A stretch of 64,000 nt of DNA from Natrarchaeobaculum sulfurireducens (lineage in GTDB: Archaea; Halobacteriota; Halobacteria; Halobacteriales; Natrialbaceae), in contig NZ_CP024047.1 of NCBI RefSeq assembly GCF_003430825.1, positions 1,798,001 to 1,862,000 of the forward strand, in the 5' to 3' direction. The translations under genes were made by a program, and so were the position numbers. Positions 632 to 41,854 of this stretch are shown one piece after another (within the stretch, counting starts at the first letter, position 1; each line of letters begins with the position of its first letter). The notes beneath the pieces were generated by a model that saw only the letters and a list, made by a program, of their open reading frames with translations, did no database searches and was not told the origin of the DNA.

Positions 632-1072
632 ATGAAACGATTACAGTTCACGCGGCGGAAACTGAGTATGAGTGTTGCAAGTGGAGTAGCGATGGTCACT
701 GCCGGATGTCTCGGTAGCAACGGCGACAGCGAGTACGAAGTCGACGTTATCGACCGAAGCTCCGACGATGCGGTCGCAGATTACCACGGACACTGGCACG
801 GCGAACTCCCATCGATTTCTCTCGAGGACAACGTCTCACTCGGTGCCGTCTTCGAGGACGAAGATGGCGAAGCGGTCGACCTCGGTGGTGAGTATAGCCT
901 CGACGTGGAACCGACGGACGAGGCCATCGTGAGCGCGGAGTCACACGGCGATCACGTCCACCTCTACGGCGAATCGGCAGGTGAAACAACGGTCACGTTC
1001 CAGTTATTCCACGACGACCACGTCGAGTGGGAAACCTCGGAAGCGATCGACGTCGAGGTTCTCGAGGAGTAG
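632..1072 (+). CDS. Lipoprotein with one histidine-rich HWH/GDHVH domain
   Basis: The 146-residue product starts with a Tat-like signal (TRRKL at residues 7-11, then a hydrophobic stretch) ending in a lipobox with Cys26, so it is probably lipid-anchored outside the membrane. The mature part is one compact domain of about 105 residues with eight histidines in three clusters: HGHWH (52-56), HGDHVH (105-110) and HDDH (127-130). The same order of clusters occurs twice in the protein at 35154 and once inside the metal-binding protein at 36354. The spacing suggests a beta-sandwich with the histidines brought together, probably to bind zinc or a similar ion. I do not recognise a named family. Function in metal capture is inference from the histidines and from the ABC-transporter context of its relatives; this copy stands alone. 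Confidence 0.85.
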   Translation: MKRLQFTRRKLSMSVASGVAMVTAGCLGSNGDSEYEVDVIDRSSDDAVADYHGHWHGELPSISLEDNVSLGAVFEDEDGEAVDLGGEYSLDVEPTDEAIVSAESHGDHVHLYGESAGETTVTFQLFHDDHVEWETSEAIDVEVLEE

Positions 1073-34069: not shown

Positions 34070-34492
34070 GTGTCGTATCCGATTCGAGACGTTCGTCGGC
34101 GAATTCACGACGAGTACGCCGACGTCGTCGCGGAGATCGATCGCTGTGCGGACGCGGTCGCTGACGCCCGAGCGTCGACCGAGCCGAACGATCGCGAGCC
34201 GCCGCGAGAGGGGTTGCAGGCGGCGCTCGAGGCGACCGGCGTTATCGAAACGCTCCCGGCAGTGCTGGCCGCGGCCGTCGACGCTGCCGGGTTCAAACTG
34301 CGCGCTCAGCCAGTTCCGGCGCCGCCGTACGTCGTCGTGACGAGCCGCGGACCGATGTTGCGGGCGACGATCGACCCCGGCCGACTCGTCGTCCGGTTCG
34401 ACGGCTTCGAGGTCGAGAGAGACGGCACATCCGGGAGCGGACCCACTTACCGTCGACTCGACGGTGTCCGGGTAACCATCTCGCTCGAGTGA
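34070..34492 (+). CDS. Conserved haloarchaeal protein of unknown function
   Basis: 140 residues from GTG 34070 (SYPIRDVRRRIHDEYADVVA and so on). The first 60 residues are helical, possibly coiled coil; the second half is strand-rich (PYVVVTSRGPMLRATIDPGRLVVRF is partly quoted as its landmark), ending in RRLDGVRVTISLE. No catalytic motif seen. No Shine-Dalgarno precedes the GTG, so start choice is moderate. It lies 34 bases before the ybaK-like gene on the same strand. Confidence 0.65.
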   Translation: MSYPIRDVRRRIHDEYADVVAEIDRCADAVADARASTEPNDREPPREGLQAALEATGVIETLPAVLAAAVDAAGFKLRAQPVPAPPYVVVTSRGPMLRATIDPGRLVVRFDGFEVERDGTSGSGPTYRRLDGVRVTISLE

Positions 34493-34526
34493 ACGTTTTT
34501 GCAACCACGTGCGAAATGAGAGAGCG

Positions 34527-35003
34527 ATGCATCCACGCGCTGAAACTTTCTCGGAGCGAGCACGCGACGTGTACGAGTTCGACCCACCGGTCGAGGAGTT
34601 CCCCAAAGGAACGAAAACCGCCGAGGACGCTGCGGCGGCGGTTGGCTGTGACGTTGCCCAGATCGCCAGTTCACTCGTCTTCGACCTCGAGGGCGCGCTG
34701 GTCGTCTCGGTGACGAGTGGGGCGAACCGCGTCGACGAGAGTGCACTCGCCGAGTCGTTCGACGCCGACCCCGACGACGTCACGATGGCGGACCCCGACC
34801 GGATCCGCGACGAACTGGGGTGGTCGATCGGCGGGGTCCCGCCGTTCTGTCACGACAAGCCGGTGCCGGTCGTCGTCGACGAGACACTCCTCGAGTTCGA
34901 GACCGTCTGGGCAGCAGCGGGGACGCCCACGGCGGTCTTCCCGATCGACCCGGATCGACTCCTCGAGTACGCGGACGCGACGGCGGCTTCGGTCGCGGAA
35001 TAG
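34527..35003 (+). CDS. YbaK/EbsC-type aminoacyl-tRNA deacylase
   Basis: 158 residues from ATG 34527 (MHPRAETFSERARDVY). Landmarks: AAAAVGCDVAQIASSLVF with the family lysine replaced by Ser/Ser context, VVSVTSGANRVDES, and IGGVPPFCHDKPVPVVVDE, matching the editing pocket GGxxP of YbaK. It should hydrolyse mischarged tRNA such as Cys-tRNA(Pro). The expected lysine in the first motif is not obvious, so activity is likely but not shown. Confidence 0.82.
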   Translation: MHPRAETFSERARDVYEFDPPVEEFPKGTKTAEDAAAAVGCDVAQIASSLVFDLEGALVVSVTSGANRVDESALAESFDADPDDVTMADPDRIRDELGWSIGGVPPFCHDKPVPVVVDETLLEFETVWAAAGTPTAVFPIDPDRLLEYADATAASVAE

Positions 35004-35153: not shown

Positions 35154-36152
35154 GTGAGTGACGAACGCCGATACGCATCCCGACGGAAGCTGCTCGCTGC
35201 GACCGGTTCGCTGACCGCACTCGGACTCGCCGGCTGTCTCGGTGACGAAGAGGGCGACGAGCCAGAGCCTGCCGACGACGGCGATGATGACCACGACGAT
35301 GATGATCATGACCATGACGACGATCACGACCACGACGACGGGGTCGCCGACGAGTACTTCGACGAGCTTGGCGTTGCCGACGAAGGATTCGTGATCCTCG
35401 ACCGGGCCCACGATCCCCACGAAGAGGTCGCGTACGTCCACGGCGACCACTGGCACGGCGACCTGCCGTCGATTCCCGTCGACGACAACGTTTCGATCGG
35501 TGCCGAGATCGAACTCGAGGATGGCGACGAACTCGAACTCGGCGACGAGTACGAACTCCGCGTCGCCGTGGCCCCGGACGAACCCGAGGGTGTCGTCGGC
35601 ATCGACGAGGACGACTACCACGGCGACCACGTTCACATCCACGGCGAACAGGAGGGTGTGACCGAGGTCGTGTTCATGATCTGGCACGACGACCACGCTG
35701 ACTACCAGAGTCCGCCGATCACGGCACAGGTCGTCGAGGAAGACGACGATCACGACCACGACCACGACGACGAGTACGTCAGTGAGTTCCAGCTCTTAGA
35801 CCGGGCCCACGACCCACACGAGGAGATCTCCTACGTCCACGGCGATCACTGGCACGGCGAGGACGACTTCCCGACGATCCCCGTTGGCGATAACGTCTCG
35901 ATCGGAGCCGAACTCGAGGACGCAGATGGTGACGAGATCGTCCTCGGCCCCGAGTACGAACTCGGCGTCGAACTCGCGGACGGTGCCGAAGAAGGTGTCG
36001 TCGAGATCGACGAGGACGAAGACTACCACGGCGACCACGTTCACATCCACGGCGAGTCCGCCGGGGAGACCGAGGTCGTCTTCACGCTCATCCACGACGA
36101 CCACGTCGACTACGAGACGCCGGCGCTCACCGTCACCGTTGGCGACGACTGA
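35154..36152 (+). CDS. Lipoprotein with two HWH/GDHVH domains and His-Asp linker
   Basis: 332 residues from GTG 35154. Signal ASRRKLLAATGSL with twin Arg and lipobox Cys28 (LAGC). A linker of about residues 37-63 is almost only Asp, Glu and His (for example DDDHDDDDHDHDD), itself a likely low-affinity metal sponge. Then two domains of about 115 residues, about 60 per cent alike, each with HDPHEE-x-YVHGDHWHG, DYHGDHVHIHGE and HDDH. A second short His/Asp linker (DDDHDHDHDD) joins them. Lying 200 bases upstream of a Znu-type ABC transporter whose binding protein carries the same domain, it is probably an external metal chaperone. Metal and affinity are inference. Confidence 0.88.
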   Translation: MSDERRYASRRKLLAATGSLTALGLAGCLGDEEGDEPEPADDGDDDHDDDDHDHDDDHDHDDGVADEYFDELGVADEGFVILDRAHDPHEEVAYVHGDHWHGDLPSIPVDDNVSIGAEIELEDGDELELGDEYELRVAVAPDEPEGVVGIDEDDYHGDHVHIHGEQEGVTEVVFMIWHDDHADYQSPPITAQVVEEDDDHDHDHDDEYVSEFQLLDRAHDPHEEISYVHGDHWHGEDDFPTIPVGDNVSIGAELEDADGDEIVLGPEYELGVELADGAEEGVVEIDEDEDYHGDHVHIHGESAGETEVVFTLIHDDHVDYETPALTVTVGDD

Positions 36153-36353
36153 AACGCACGCCAGCGGTTACTTCCGGCGTGACCACACCGCCCGCCGCTC
36201 CGTCGCGACATAGCCCACACGGAGTGGGGTTGTGCACTCACTCGAGCCACCATACCGCTCGAGTTGCTAACGCCGTCGACGCATCCACTTCCTATTATTA
36301 ATTGAGTCAGCATAGATAATAACGCTTTTAGCCTCCCCGACGTATCCTTGTGT
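36153..36353 (+). promoter_or_regulatory. Promoter region of the metal transporter operon
   Basis: TATTATTAATTGAGTCAGCA and TAGATAATAA (36293-36323) contain the inverted repeat TTATTA/TAATAA and ATTAATTGA, shared with 578-586. The TATA-like CTTTTAGCC at 36327 lies about 25 bases before ATG 36354. Candidate operator for a metal regulator. Confidence 0.4.
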
Positions 36354-37739
36354 ATGAATCAGACACGCCGCTCCGTGCTGAAAGCCGGTGCCGGGGCTCT
36401 CGCGTTTGGGGGACTCGCCGGTTGTCTCAGCGAACCGGAGGGAGAAGCAGGCGACCGAACCGGTTATGCCGCTTTCTTCGCCCTCTGGGACTGGGCCGAA
36501 CACGTTGCCGGCGACGAGTTCTCCTTCGAGAACCCGGTGACGACCGGCGAGATGGGTCACGGTTGGGAACCCGACGGCGACCTCGCCGCGGATATCGCGA
36601 CGACGGACGCGTTCATCTATCTCGACACCCCGGAGTTCTCGTGGGCCCAGGATATCGCCGCCCAGCTCGAGACCGACTACGACGACGTCGCCGTGATCGA
36701 TGGGATGGACGGCCTCGGGAGCCACCTCCTGCCGATCGACCGCGAGGTCGCCGCCGAACCCGATTATGACTACGAGTTCGATCCGGACAGCCTGGAGATC
36801 GGTGAGTTCGACGTGCTCGATGGCCGGACGGGCGAGGTGACTGCCTACTGGCACGTCGATCACTGGCACGAGAGTATTCCCGACGTTCCAGTCGGCGAGT
36901 CGGTCCCCATCGAGGGGGTCTTCGCGGACCCCGAGGGTCGGGTCCTCCCGCTCGGCGATGACGAGCAGTTCCAGTTCGACGCCAGACTGGCCGAAGGCGC
37001 TCCGGAGGGCGTCGTCGAGATCGAGTCCCACGGCGACCACGTCGAACTGCACGGGCTCGAGGCGAACCGGACGCTGCTCGTCTTCGAACTCGTCCACGAC
37101 GGTGAGGTGGTCTGGGACACCGCCGACGAGGGGATGGCGACGGACGTGGTCGAAGAACTCGACGACGAGGAAGCAGACGAGTTCGTCGACCCCCACGTCT
37201 GGGTCGATCCCGTCCTCGCACAGCAGGTCGTCGATAACATCGCAACGGGGCTTGGCGAGGTCGATCCCGACAACGCCGAGCTGTACGAGGAAAACGCCGC
37301 GGCGTATACCGAGCGACTCGAGGCGGTCGACCGACAGTTCGAGGAACTGGTCGAGAACGCCTCGAGAGACGTCGCGATTTTCGCCGGTCACGACTCCTAT
37401 CAGTACGTCGAACAGCGCTATGGCTTCGAGTTGTACACGCCCGTCGGTATCTCACCCGACGCGGCCGAGTCGTTCGAGGACATCTCGGGGATGGTCGACC
37501 TCGTCGAGGAATACGACATCGACACGGTCCTGTACGATCCGTTCGAGTCTCCTGACCCGGACGAACAGCTGCCGAGTATGGTCGAACTCCTCATCGAAGA
37601 CAGCCAGGTGACAGACGCCGAGCCGCTCAGTCCCGCCGAGGGGACGACCCACGAGTGGGACGAACAGGACTGGGGCTGGGTCGAGCAGATGGAAGAAGTG
37701 AACCTTCGCTCGCTCAGGAAGGCACTCGATGTGTCGTAA
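36354..37739 (+). CDS. znuA: ZnuA-type metal-binding lipoprotein with inserted HWH domain
   Basis: 461 residues from ATG 36354; a TTG six bases earlier is not needed. Tat-like signal TRRSVLKAGAG and lipobox Cys24. The cluster 9 (ZnuA/PsaA) fold is visible: His69 in GEMGHGWEP, His281 in DPHVWVDP, His346 in AGHDSYQYV and the acidic ligand region YDPFESPD (Asp395). Usual family members carry a His-rich flexible loop between the first and second ligands; here that position (about 150-270) is filled by a complete HWH/GDHVH domain with HVDHWH (167-172), SHGDHVELHG and FELVHDGEV. The protein delivers zinc or manganese to ZnuB. Confidence 0.93.
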   Translation: MNQTRRSVLKAGAGALAFGGLAGCLSEPEGEAGDRTGYAAFFALWDWAEHVAGDEFSFENPVTTGEMGHGWEPDGDLAADIATTDAFIYLDTPEFSWAQDIAAQLETDYDDVAVIDGMDGLGSHLLPIDREVAAEPDYDYEFDPDSLEIGEFDVLDGRTGEVTAYWHVDHWHESIPDVPVGESVPIEGVFADPEGRVLPLGDDEQFQFDARLAEGAPEGVVEIESHGDHVELHGLEANRTLLVFELVHDGEVVWDTADEGMATDVVEELDDEEADEFVDPHVWVDPVLAQQVVDNIATGLGEVDPDNAELYEENAAAYTERLEAVDRQFEELVENASRDVAIFAGHDSYQYVEQRYGFELYTPVGISPDAAESFEDISGMVDLVEEYDIDTVLYDPFESPDPDEQLPSMVELLIEDSQVTDAEPLSPAEGTTHEWDEQDWGWVEQMEEVNLRSLRKALDVS

Positions 37740-37835
37740 CCGTGACTCGAGGTGCCGACGCATCCACCGTCCGTGGCCCTCGGCGCGAGATGGAAGAATT
37801 AAACCCCCTCGGAGTAGAGAACTGGTGAGAATACA

Positions 37836-38579
37836 GTGAGTTCGGTCGTCACCGTCGAAGACGTTTCGTTCGCCTACGGCGAGAAAGCCGCGATAGAAGA
37901 CATTTCGCTGTCGATCGACGCAGGTGACTTCGTCGGCCTGATCGGCCCGAACGGGTCGGGCAAGACGACGCTGCTTCATCTGATGCTCGGGCTCAAACGG
38001 CCCGACTCCGGCTCGATCACGTTGTTCGGCGAGCCGATCGACGAGTTCGACGACGGCGAACGGATCGGCTACGTCTCTCAGCACTCGACCGACCGGGGCA
38101 GTACGATGCCGGTTACCGTCCGCGAAGTCGTCACGATGGGCCGGTTCGCCCACGTCGGTCGCTCACCACTCGGCACCGACGACCACGAGATCGTCGACGA
38201 GGCGCTCGAAACAGTCGAAATCACTGATCTGGCGGACAGACGGGTCAACCAGCTCTCGGGCGGTCAGCGCCAGCGGACGTTCATCGCGCGGGCGCTCGCC
38301 TCCGAGGCCGACCTGCTGGCACTCGACGAGCCGACCGTCGGCGTCGACGCGGAGTCTCGAGAGCACTTCTACGGAATGCTCGACGACCTCAACCGACAGG
38401 GGATCACGATCATCCTCATCGAACACGACATCGACATCCTCACGAAACACGTCAACAAGGTCGCCTGTATCAACAGGGAACTGTACCACCACGGAGATAC
38501 CATCTCGTTCCTCGAGAGCGAGGCGCTGTCGAAGGCGTACGGGGCCGCCCACGGCGTCATCGAACACGATCACCCATGA
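37836..38579 (+). CDS. znuC: Metal ABC transporter ATP-binding protein
   Basis: 247 residues from GTG 37836. Complete ABC motifs: Walker A GPNGSGKTT, Q-loop in YVSQHST, signature LSGGQRQR, Walker B LLALDEPTVGVD and switch His in LIEHDID. The C-terminal His cluster GAAHGVIEHDHP fits ZnuC. 97 bases after the binding protein with its own possible TATA (AATTAAACC at about 37798). The stop overlaps the permease start (ATGA). Confidence 0.94.
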   Translation: MSSVVTVEDVSFAYGEKAAIEDISLSIDAGDFVGLIGPNGSGKTTLLHLMLGLKRPDSGSITLFGEPIDEFDDGERIGYVSQHSTDRGSTMPVTVREVVTMGRFAHVGRSPLGTDDHEIVDEALETVEITDLADRRVNQLSGGQRQRTFIARALASEADLLALDEPTVGVDAESREHFYGMLDDLNRQGITIILIEHDIDILTKHVNKVACINRELYHHGDTISFLESEALSKAYGAAHGVIEHDHP

Positions 38580-39688
38580 GTCTGGATACGAAGAACGTCG
38601 ACGGAGCCGGCGGGCCGGTGGCAAATCTCACGGCGTGGCTGGGATGGTTCAGGCCCCAGCACCGCCGGGAGTGGGTCGAACTCGGCGGGATCGTGCTGAC
38701 CGCCCTTCTCGGTGTCGCGATGATCGGCTACATCCTCCTCGACTGGCTGCGCTTTGCGCCCGAATGGGCCGTGATTGGCCCGTACGCCGATCTGTTGTTC
38801 AGTCAGTTCATCGTCGCGGGAATGTGGATGGATCACTACCTCGGGACGAACGTCTTCAGCCACCCGTTCATGTGGCGGGCGATCGCCACCGGCGTGTTGA
38901 TCGGGATCGTCGCGCCGCTGGTGGGAACCTACCTCGTCCATCGGCAGATGGCACTCATCGGAGAAACGCTTGCCCACACCGCCTTCGCAGGCGTCGCCGT
39001 CGGCCTCCTGTTCATCGCGTTGACCGGTTGGACTGGCTCGCTGTTGTTCGTCGCGTTGATCGTGAGCGCCCTCGGCGCGATCGGGCTCCAGTGGCTCACC
39101 GATCGAACCAACACGTACGGGGACGTTCCAATCGCGATCGTCTTGAGCGGGAGTTTCGCCGTTGGCACGTTGCTCATCAGCTGGGGCCGCGATTTCACCT
39201 CGCTCGCGATCGATATCGAGGGCTTTCTCTTCGGCAGTCTGGCCATCGTCACCGCCGAAGGGGCGCGACTGGTCGCTGCGCTCAGCGTCGTCGTCGTCAT
39301 TCTCGTGGCGCTCAATTACAAACAGCTCCTGTTTATCACGTTCGACGAGCAGGCCGCTCGCGTCGCCCGTCTCGACGTCGACCGGTACAACACCCTGTTG
39401 ATCGTCATGACCGCCGTCGTCGTCGTCGGTGCGATGCAGATCCTCGGCGTGATTCTCGTCGCGGCGATGCTCGTCGTCCCGGTCGCGACGGCGTCACAGG
39501 TCGCCGAAAGCTTTCGTGAAACGTTGTTTCTCTCGATTCTGTTCGGACAGCTGTCGGTCCTCGGTGGACTGGCGTTTGCGATCAGTGCAAGTCTTCCCCC
39601 TGGTGGCTCGATCGTGGTCGTTGCGATTAGTTTTTACTTGCTTTCGATCGTTGCATCCGGCCGATCGACAGCCATCTCGATGCACTGA
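38576..39688 (+). CDS. znuB: Metal ABC transporter permease
   Basis: 370 residues with about eight membrane segments, and an unusually long N-terminal region (about 65 residues before the first conserved helices). ABC-3 family motif GIVAPLVGTYLVHRQMALIGETLAHTAFAGVAVG and the EAA-like loop between the third and fourth helices are visible. Forms the channel for the zinc/manganese importer with ZnuA and ZnuC; translationally coupled to znuC. Confidence 0.93.
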   Translation: MSLDTKNVDGAGGPVANLTAWLGWFRPQHRREWVELGGIVLTALLGVAMIGYILLDWLRFAPEWAVIGPYADLLFSQFIVAGMWMDHYLGTNVFSHPFMWRAIATGVLIGIVAPLVGTYLVHRQMALIGETLAHTAFAGVAVGLLFIALTGWTGSLLFVALIVSALGAIGLQWLTDRTNTYGDVPIAIVLSGSFAVGTLLISWGRDFTSLAIDIEGFLFGSLAIVTAEGARLVAALSVVVVILVALNYKQLLFITFDEQAARVARLDVDRYNTLLIVMTAVVVVGAMQILGVILVAAMLVVPVATASQVAESFRETLFLSILFGQLSVLGGLAFAISASLPPGGSIVVVAISFYLLSIVASGRSTAISMH

Positions 39689-39757
39689 CCCCGGAGACCT
39701 CCACGGGTTTGGGAACGTGAGCGGGCTTTAACTCCTTCCGAAGTGAATCGCCATACG

Positions 39758-41854
39758 ATGGGACGGTTATCTGATCTCTTTGCCCCCGACACTGTCGCTG
39801 TAATCGGCGCGACCGACCGCGAAGGCGCGGTCGGCCGGGCAATCCTCGAGAATCTCCAGCTGGAGTTCGATGGGGAGGTCGTGCCGATCAATCCGAACCG
39901 CGACGAGATTCTGGGGCTCGAATGTTATCCCGCTGTCGAGTGCGCCCCGCCGGTCGACCTGGCGGTGGTCGTCGTACCGCCGCCGGTCGTCCTCGAGTCG
40001 ATCGAGGAGCTGGGCGAAGCAGGCACCGAAAACGTCGTCGTTATCACGGCTGGTTTCTCCGAGACCGGTAGTGAAGGTGCCGAACGCGAACAGCAGTTGC
40101 GCGAACTCGCCGAGGAGTACGACCTGAACGTCGTCGGTCCGAATAGCCTCGGAATCATGTCGACACCCGTCGGCATGAACGCGACGTTCGGTCCGGAGAG
40201 TGCCACTCCGGGGTCGATCTCCTTTATGAGTCAGTCCGGGGCGTTCATCACGGCCGTCCTGGACTGGGCGAACGAACAGGGAATCGGCTTCCGCGACGTC
40301 GTCTCACTCGGAAACAAAGCGGTTCTCGACGAGGGCGACTTCGTCAGACAGTGGGGCGAAGACCCCGAGACGGACGTCGTCATCGGCTACCTCGAGGGGA
40401 TCGACGACGGCGATGACTTCGTTCGAGCGGCCCGCGAGGTCACCGACGAGACGCCGATCGTCCTCGTCAAGTCCGGCCGGACGGACGCCGGCGCACAGGC
40501 TGCGTCCTCACATACGGGAGCGATCGCCGGTAGCGAGCGGGCCTACGAGGCCGGGCTCGAGCAGGCGGGCGTCCTCCGGGCGAGTTCAGTCCAGGAGCTG
40601 TTCGACTACGCCCGCGCGCTCTCCGGGCTCCCCGAACCGGAGTCCGACGGCGTTGCGGTCGTCACGAACGCGGGCGGTCCCGGCGTGTTGACGACCGACG
40701 CAATCGGTGACTCCACACTCGAGATGGCCGACTTCATTGACGAGACGATCGACCGACTGGGCGAGACGATGCCCGACGAGGCCAACGTCTACAACCCGAT
40801 CGACGCGATCGGCGACGCCGACGTCAGCCGGTTCGCCGACGCACTCGAAATCGCCCTCGATGATCCGAACGTCGGCGCCGCGGTCGTGGTCAGCGCGCCG
40901 ACGGCGGTGCTCCAGTACGACAAGCTCGCGGAGGTTATCATCGAGAATCGCGAGGCCTACGACAAACCTGTCGTTGCCTGTCTGATGGGTGGCGAACGAG
41001 CCCGCGCCGCGGAGGAAGTCCTTCGAGAGTTCGGCATTCCGAACTACTTCGACCCCTCGCGTGCAATCGCGGGCCTCGACGCGCTCGCGCGGTACCGAGA
41101 CGTTCGGGAGCGAACGTTCGAGGACCCACCCGCCTTCGACGTCGACCGCGAACGCGCACGGGAGATCCTCGCGCGCGCCGAGGGTCGCGACGACAACCGC
41201 CTCGGCGTCGAGTCGATGGACCTCCTCGAGGCCTACGGCATCCCGACGCCCGACGGCGAGATCGTCGACGATCCAGAACGCGCCCGCGAAGTGGCCGAGT
41301 CGATCGAGGGCGACGTCGTCATGAAGATCGTCAGCCCAGACATCTCACACAAATCGGACATCGGCGGCGTCAAAGTCGGCGTTCCAACCGACGAGGTGTA
41401 CGACGCCTACGAAGACGTCGTTTCTCGCGCTCGCAACTACCAGCCCGATGCGACCATCTTCGGCGTGCAAGTCCAGGAGATGGTCGACCTCGAGGGAACG
41501 ACCGAGACGATCGTCGGCATGAACCGCGATCCACAGTTCGGGCCGCTCCTCCTGTTCGGCCTGGGCGGTATTTTCGTCGAGATCCTCGAAGATACGTCGG
41601 TCCGCGTGGCACCGATCGACGAGAACGAGGCTGCCGAGATGGTCGAGGAGATCCAGGCCGCGCCGCTGTTACGTGGCGCACGCGGGAGAGATCCCGCCGA
41701 CGTGGATGCCGTCGTGGAGACGATTCTCCGGCTCTCCCAGCTGGTGACCGACTTCCCGGCGATCCTCGAACTCGACGTGAACCCGCTCGTGGCAGGCCCC
41801 GATGGCGTACAGGCGATCGACCTCAGACTCACCGTGGACACGGCAAACCTATGA
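39758..41854 (+). CDS. acd: Acetyl/acyl-CoA synthetase (ADP-forming), fused alpha and beta parts
   Basis: 698 residues from ATG 39758. CoA-binding domain FAPDTVAVIGATDREGAVGRA, succinyl-CoA-ligase-like flavodoxin domains with VVGPNSLGIM, the catalytic phosphohistidine His252 in SSHTGAIAGSERAY, and a C-terminal ATP-grasp domain with KIVSPDISHKSDIGGVKVG and GLGGIFVEILEDTSVR. Converts acyl-CoA, ADP and phosphate to acid, CoA and ATP. Overlaps the downstream gene by 4 bases. Confidence 0.94.
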   Translation: MGRLSDLFAPDTVAVIGATDREGAVGRAILENLQLEFDGEVVPINPNRDEILGLECYPAVECAPPVDLAVVVVPPPVVLESIEELGEAGTENVVVITAGFSETGSEGAEREQQLRELAEEYDLNVVGPNSLGIMSTPVGMNATFGPESATPGSISFMSQSGAFITAVLDWANEQGIGFRDVVSLGNKAVLDEGDFVRQWGEDPETDVVIGYLEGIDDGDDFVRAAREVTDETPIVLVKSGRTDAGAQAASSHTGAIAGSERAYEAGLEQAGVLRASSVQELFDYARALSGLPEPESDGVAVVTNAGGPGVLTTDAIGDSTLEMADFIDETIDRLGETMPDEANVYNPIDAIGDADVSRFADALEIALDDPNVGAAVVVSAPTAVLQYDKLAEVIIENREAYDKPVVACLMGGERARAAEEVLREFGIPNYFDPSRAIAGLDALARYRDVRERTFEDPPAFDVDRERAREILARAEGRDDNRLGVESMDLLEAYGIPTPDGEIVDDPERAREVAESIEGDVVMKIVSPDISHKSDIGGVKVGVPTDEVYDAYEDVVSRARNYQPDATIFGVQVQEMVDLEGTTETIVGMNRDPQFGPLLLFGLGGIFVEILEDTSVRVAPIDENEAAEMVEEIQAAPLLRGARGRDPADVDAVVETILRLSQLVTDFPAILELDVNPLVAGPDGVQAIDLRLTVDTANL

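Follow-up and report, generated by a model that had tools for sequence, protein, structure and literature searches.

Why should the substrate-binding protein (SBP) of an archaeal metal importer carry an additional histidine-rich domain, and why should the same domain recur on lipoproteins encoded nearby? The question is raised by a 64,000-nucleotide stretch of the Natrarchaeobaculum sulfurireducens genome (contig NZ_CP024047.1, positions 1,798,001 to 1,862,000; hereafter the window, in which the lipoprotein, transporter and promoter features given below lie on the plus strand), where genes for a lipoprotein (35154..36152), an SBP (36354..37739), an ATP-binding cassette (ABC) ATPase (37836..38579) and a permease (38576..39688) follow one another. 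A sequence-only reading had proposed that the lipoproteins collect zinc or manganese outside the membrane and pass it to the importer. That interpretation is supported by the present analysis: with a probability of about 0.7, the locus encodes a cluster A-I (cluster 9) importer, most likely for zinc, equipped with a folded metal-capture module.

The domain, of approximately 115 residues, is present in four copies in the window, in the architectures proposed earlier, i.e. alone on one lipoprotein, in tandem with a His/Asp-rich linker on a second and inserted in the SBP. A single-sequence query with the single-domain protein (632..1072; a Tat-type lipoprotein with lipobox TAGC and the domain at 728-1069) recovers both tandem copies (E=2e-21 and 3e-21) and the SBP copy (E=4e-16), together with a fifth copy elsewhere in the genome (C3:388433-388843, E=5e-38). 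The 35154 lipoprotein, also of the Tat type, has its linker, assigned from sequence, near the N terminus (35274..35342), and its domain copies at 35376..35741 and 35775..36149. A four-way alignment shows the H.HWH core, HGDHV and the His and Asp of the third motif to be invariant. The similarity of the copies is well above what chance would give. Of the ordered motifs DHWH, HGDHVH and HDDH previously ascribed to them, the first is HGHWH in the 632 protein, and the SBP copy keeps the first motif, with HGDHVE and HDGE instead of the full second and third. The first motif appears better read as HxxHWH than as DHWH, with two such triads, HGDHWH and HGDHVH, in each copy of the 35154 lipoprotein. 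No Pfam, NCBIfam or PHROG family matches the domain, and a profile search of PDB sequences gave nothing significant; matches to TagH (E=0.001), holin, TOBE_2 and fimbrial usher families are weak and look like compositional noise. In the literature collection searched, no paper on such a system was found. The domain is an undescribed, His-rich one with a probable immunoglobulin (Ig)-like fold.

The protein into which one copy is inserted is an SBP of the ZnuA/AztC type, its start being best placed at ATG 36354. It belongs to cluster A-I (PF01297, E=8e-44; 150.5 bits against a cut-off of 29, with an insertion), and a PF00950 permease and an ABC_tran ATPase adjoin it, as membership requires. The three His and one acidic core ligands claimed for it are all present, as H62, the His of DPHVW, H339 and D388 (codons at 36558, 37194, 37389 and 37536), the latter two being invariant in 32 SBPs. 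A structural model most resembles Lmb (Z 28.8), AztC (Z 28.7) and AdcA (Z 28.1). By profile comparison AztA, AztB and AztC are the closest NCBIfam relatives of the three transporter parts, which are not members of these families: the ATPase (AztA, E=1.7e-55), permease (AztB, E=5.7e-42; PF00950, E=6.5e-58) and SBP score 187.6, 144.2 and 79.9 bits against equivalog cut-offs of 220, 280 and 350, respectively.

The position of the insert (36795..37157) is informative. A profile alignment of the SBP with AdcA breaks precisely at the AdcA His-rich loop, which separates the HEYEP ligand, the first, from the DPHVW ligand, the second, and orthologues lacking the domain (in Natrinema, several Halorubrum, Halobellus, Halovivax, Saliphagus and Halobiforma haloterrestris) have at the same site 20-89 residues with 5-25 His, Halovenus, with 11 residues, being an exception. 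The earlier proposals that relatives have a His-rich loop where the domain sits, and that the domain stands in place of that loop, are therefore borne out, since orthologues carry one or the other; that it stands in place of ZinT holds as a functional analogy only. Domain-bearing orthologues mostly have few His residues outside the domain. On a tree of SBP cores, loop and domain states require at least eight parsimony changes, five of which are forced by well-supported branches, as exemplified by Halobiforma nitratireducens (domain) and H. haloterrestris (loop). Loop and domain are thus exchangeable, and nothing argues more strongly for a common function. Since the domain sits where relatives have a floppy His-rich loop, it is probably a folded metal-catching device. 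Previous work has shown that the His loop of AztC accepts zinc from the chaperone AztD and that the ZnuA loop works with ZinT (PMC7731109). Other inserts are also found at this site: the SBP of Natribaculum breve, which lacks the domain, has a different domain with an HACxH motif and a His-rich stretch, and the SBPs of two soda-lake metagenome-assembled genomes (MAGs; L121 and L123) have two tandem domains, with 49 and 40 His in the insert.

The fold was modelled with AlphaFold2 from 78 aligned domain copies, using the second copy of the 35154 lipoprotein, and is all-beta (pLDDT 95.5, pTM 0.88). The best structural matches are a NUP210-type nuclear pore domain (Z 9.2), SbsC (Z 8.9), LigA (Z 8.2) and Bacillus anthracis Sap (Z 8.0); because the latter three are Ig-like domains of surface proteins, the predicted scaffold, when compared with the bacterial Ig-like (BIG2-type) fold, is likely an Ig-like beta-sandwich. 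Such a scaffold is common among surface proteins, and the special feature here is the His clusters. SbsC, LigA and Sap, while probably sharing the fold, are structural or adhesive, lack His clusters and have no sequence match to the archaeal domain. Regarding the concern that the domain might match a known non-metal-binding family, the fold accordingly identifies a scaffold rather than a function, and no sequence family was matched.

In the modelled copy H25-W26-H27 makes up a short strand, a single strand carries H88-H92, and H107 and H110 flank a hairpin (first codon bases: H22 35838, H25 35847, H27 35853; H85 36027, H88 36036, H90 36042, H92 36048; H107 36093, H110 36102). Over the 78 copies, His is found at positions 22, 25 and 27 in 91, 90 and 76%, at 85, 88 and 90 in 62, 63 and 37%, and at 107 and 110 in 45 and 29%. 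His 22, 25 and 27 co-vary (r 0.55-0.93), whereas His 85, 88, 90, 107 and 110 tend to co-vary mutually (r 0.16-0.66) more strongly than they do with the first group (r -0.16 to 0.35). The His residues are therefore conserved, a point on which the sequence-only reading depended, and their two groups suggest two sites. We read these as a conserved putative site A (HxxHWH) and, in the lipoproteins, a putative site B (HGDHVH plus HDDH). Site A is kept in the SBP copies, with H160, H163 and W164 invariant in 32 SBPs (H160 36852, H163 36861 and H165 36867 in the window), and site B is largely lost from them.

The genomic neighbourhood links the inserted domain to the lipoproteins. A lipoprotein with one to three domain copies precedes the SBP in 40 of 71 domain loci with enough flanking sequence, compared with none of 22 domain-less loci (Fisher p=5e-7). 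A domain lipoprotein is near the SBP in 42 of the 71, and a domain or HACxH lipoprotein lies on either side in 53 of the 71 versus 0 of 21 His-loop loci. In some genomes domain and HACxH repeats occur together on surface proteins of ~740-940 residues, one of which has a PGF-CTERM-like end. The HACxH domain, characterized by that motif and a later Cys, is a second undescribed domain, with no match in Pfam; it occurs on lipoproteins and on surface proteins of ~550-940 residues, often with the promoter element described below (loci L038-L042, L046, L067, L069, L077, L089 and L157).

A further link is a sequence, ATAATAACnCTTTTA, common to upstream regions ~40 nt before the start codon and also written ATAATAAC; the lipoprotein genes have a related form, GTTAATAATATCGT. 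In the window it is present as ATAATAACGCTTTTA at 36316..36330, where CTTTTA, a likely TATA box, is centred ~27 nt upstream of ATG 36354. This half of the element would fit the TATA box of a leaderless transcript starting at that ATG; similarly, transcription of znuA1 in Haloferax volcanii begins 4 nt ahead of the start codon (PMC8155600). A whole-genome search allowing 0 or 1 mismatch finds the element only at 36316-36330. The loci compared, 1.53 Mb in all, contain 133 strong sites, which are not all independent as some loci are duplicates of one genome; 117 precede SBP, domain or transporter genes (64 domain SBPs, 28 other domain genes, 21 domain-less SBPs and 4 ATPase genes), and about ten of the other 16 precede HACxH or poly-His/Asp lipoproteins. 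The element is a candidate operator, which would tie domain, loop, lipoproteins and importer into one candidate haloarchaeal metal-uptake regulon. A strict palindromic operator was considered, but a scan gave weak dyads only and a non-palindromic element is preferred.

The domain is not confined to this type of importer. A first-profile search found it in 51 of 292 Halobacteria genomes and 22 of 77 genera, all 51 carriers being among the 241 genomes with a PF01297 protein. When 393 genomes sampled across the phylum were searched, the domain was clearly present, besides Halobacteria, in only three genomes, all from the methanogen genus Methanocalculus, whose copies keep HxDHWHG and HGDHVH; one further genome of the genus, when searched, had no copy. 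Two of these soda-lake Methanocalculus genomes encode a two-copy surface protein in a cobalamin cluster, between a cobalamin-synthesis gene and cbiM, encoding a cobalt transporter and lying directly downstream (L160:6597-8344 and L162:6856-8593). Further Methanocalculus copies have FrhB/FdhB-type and molybdopterin oxidoreductase genes in their vicinity. A divergent relative with two HWH motifs, present in two haloarchaea (L047:3159-6156 and L051:1079-3989), is encoded beside a DUF7405 gene and a gene weakly matching the PF10634 Fe2+ transport domain. The predicted co-occurrence with metal transporters is thus strong and repeated in three contexts, a pattern that speaks for metal capture in general and against a role restricted to zinc.

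The domain and its architectures, the insert site, the conserved ligands, the recurrent exchange with loops, the gene neighbourhood and the common promoter element are shown by the data; that metal is bound, that it is zinc, that it passes between proteins and that metal limitation induces the genes are the parts of this picture that we infer. The membrane-anchored lipoproteins would bind scarce metal outside the cell via sites A and B; the SBP domain, with site A next to the core site, may catch metal itself and/or receive it from the lipoproteins, and would pass it to the 3His+Asp core site, from which the permease and ATPase would import it.

Several observations weigh against this proposal. 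When the loop of AztC or ZnuA is deleted, growth suffers little or not at all (PMC7731109), and the module may therefore be helpful without being essential. Single-domain lipoproteins are encoded away from metal genes: no metal gene adjoins 632, whose match to the promoter element is weak (8.3 bits), and the fifth copy, at C3:388433-388843, is a single-domain protein adjoining an arginyl-tRNA synthetase gene, with no metal context. In one clade of domain SBPs Lys replaces the second core His (DAKFFSDP or DVKFFSDP) while the other ligands stay; most of these loci (L045, L061, L068, L075, L118, L120, L122 and L125-L129) lack an adjacent ATPase of this type. Finally, a 3His/1Asp site also occurs in group III manganese/iron binders (PMC7731109), so that zinc is inferred for this importer, and the genome's other, DtxR-linked SBP has a ligand pattern similar to that of the window SBP. 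Ligand pattern alone was for this last reason rejected as a criterion distinguishing zinc from manganese.

These considerations bear on a first alternative, in which the architecture is as described but the importer is one for manganese, iron or a mixture of metals, the domain being a general divalent-metal catcher fitted to its importer. As well as the core ligands, which are typical of manganese/iron binders, the cobalt transporter gene and the iron-transport-like gene adjoining the domain elsewhere are consistent with it. By contrast, His-rich loops, a hallmark of zinc SBPs, are present in the orthologues, and the nearest family, AztC, is zinc-specific. Moreover, the only other cluster A-I system of the genome adjoins a DtxR/SirR-type regulator, while none is beside the window operon. 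The arrangement of that second transporter resembles the SirR-controlled manganese genes of Halobacterium (PMC3600143), leaving the window importer as the zinc candidate. Taken together, the nearest families, the His-rich loops and the regulator favour zinc over manganese, and the first alternative is rather unlikely.

It may alternatively be that the surface domains retain metal extracellularly, for protection or storage, without handing it to the importer. There is a precedent for sequestration in Corynebacterium diphtheriae, where a transporter mutant regains growth once the surface zinc binders ZnuF/ZnuG are lost (PMC12445094). A buffer of this kind is, however, improbable here, given that the SBP itself contains the domain, at the loop which, in AztC, mediates transfer from AztD, and that the promoter element is common to domain genes and importer. 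A purely structural role, as an Ig-like spacer or S-layer-type adhesion module with His residues serving pH response or folding rather than metal uptake, would accord with the S-layer/adhesin fold matches, but is very improbable because the best conserved positions include the His motifs but not the scaffold, and because the domain is exchanged with His loops and occurs in three different metal-gene contexts.

Capture of metal by surface proteins and its delivery to a cluster A-I importer would have parallels in bacteria; by analogy the archaeal system may work like PhtD-AdcAII, AztD-AztC and the C. diphtheriae ZnuE-G proteins, although its sequence places it in none of them. The AztABCD system of Paracoccus denitrificans, its nearest NCBIfam relative, has the same 3His+Asp core and an accessory extracellular binder, AztD, acting with the His-rich D-loop of the AztC SBP, features in which the archaeal system would resemble it. 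By contrast, the archaeal parts fall under the curated cut-offs, a folded Ig-like domain is present instead of a loop, and, no AztD being seen, Ig-like lipoproteins stand in its place; these lipoproteins match no ZinT or AztD family in Pfam or NCBIfam. In streptococci, surface proteins with repeated HxxHxH motifs are encoded with a cluster A-I SBP, and PhtD hands zinc to AdcAII (PMC3842936). HGDHWH and HGDHVH conform to this triad, a likeness of motif only: the PF04270 profile touched 2 of the 78 copies, not significantly (best E=0.27), the Pht unit is three-stranded rather than an Ig-like sandwich, and a Pht unit within AdcAII is not described in that work. ZnuE/F/G of C. diphtheriae are likewise surface proteins bearing a motif-containing domain, singly or repeated, and ZnuA has a related HxD/HxH motif and first two core ligands that are far apart (H63 and H317) (PMC12445094). 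This actinobacterial anchored-repeat type ABC system differs in its motif and its ~150-residue spacing, and TIGR03769 and its kin match neither the archaeal lipoproteins (E<=1) nor the large surface proteins (E<=0.5). These Pfam/NCBIfam profile tests led us to drop homology to Pht, ZinT, AztD and anchored-repeat domains.

The flanking gene order also looks conserved in related loci (34070-35003 and 39743-41854 in the window), with an unknown protein of ~140 residues and one of ~160 residues (of tRNA-editing type in the window) upstream of the importer, and an acyl-CoA synthetase-like protein of ~700 residues downstream.

With respect to habitat, 44 of 47 classified domain rows are alkaliphiles, compared with 1 of 17 loop rows (Fisher 3e-11 on raw counts), the labels coming partly from general knowledge. 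Carriers from presumably non-alkaline settings are Halorutilus, Natronococcus jeotgali and an Odiel soil MAG. Phylogenetically independent supported pairs number four (about three agree, none oppose), and by this test the association is not significant; with so few pairs, the concentration of the domain in alkaliphiles is suggestive, not proven. The present organism is, we take it, Natronolimnobius sulfurireducens, now placed in Natrarchaeobaculum. Strain AArc1 of the former name is an alkaliphile from soda lakes, its genome comprising a 3.5 Mb chromosome and two plasmids, of 101 and 166 kb (PMC6176080), and the source lakes of some of the MAGs have a pH of 9.9-10.2 (PMC4766312). None of the plasmid records searched carries the domain.

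Under a wider proposal, tentative and with odds somewhat short of even, the domain is a plug-in capture module by which alkaline-lake archaea respond to metal scarcity at pH 9-10. Its Ig-like scaffold with His clusters would trade places with disordered His loops and the HACxH domain at one SBP site, occur on various surface proteins, be controlled by a metal-limitation promoter element of its own and serve unrelated importers (zinc-type ABC, cobalt ECF and iron-type). To our knowledge, no archaeal system for scavenging metal at the surface, with a candidate regulon, has been described before; the present one would be tied to life in soda lakes, where free transition metals should be very scarce. 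The working of the His-rich loop in zinc-binding proteins is unsettled, because deleting it has little effect and crystals show it disordered. A compact folded substitute can be purified, crystallised and mutated, and closely related natural pairs are at hand (Halobiforma nitratireducens and H. haloterrestris; Halorubrum vacuolatum and other Halorubrum).

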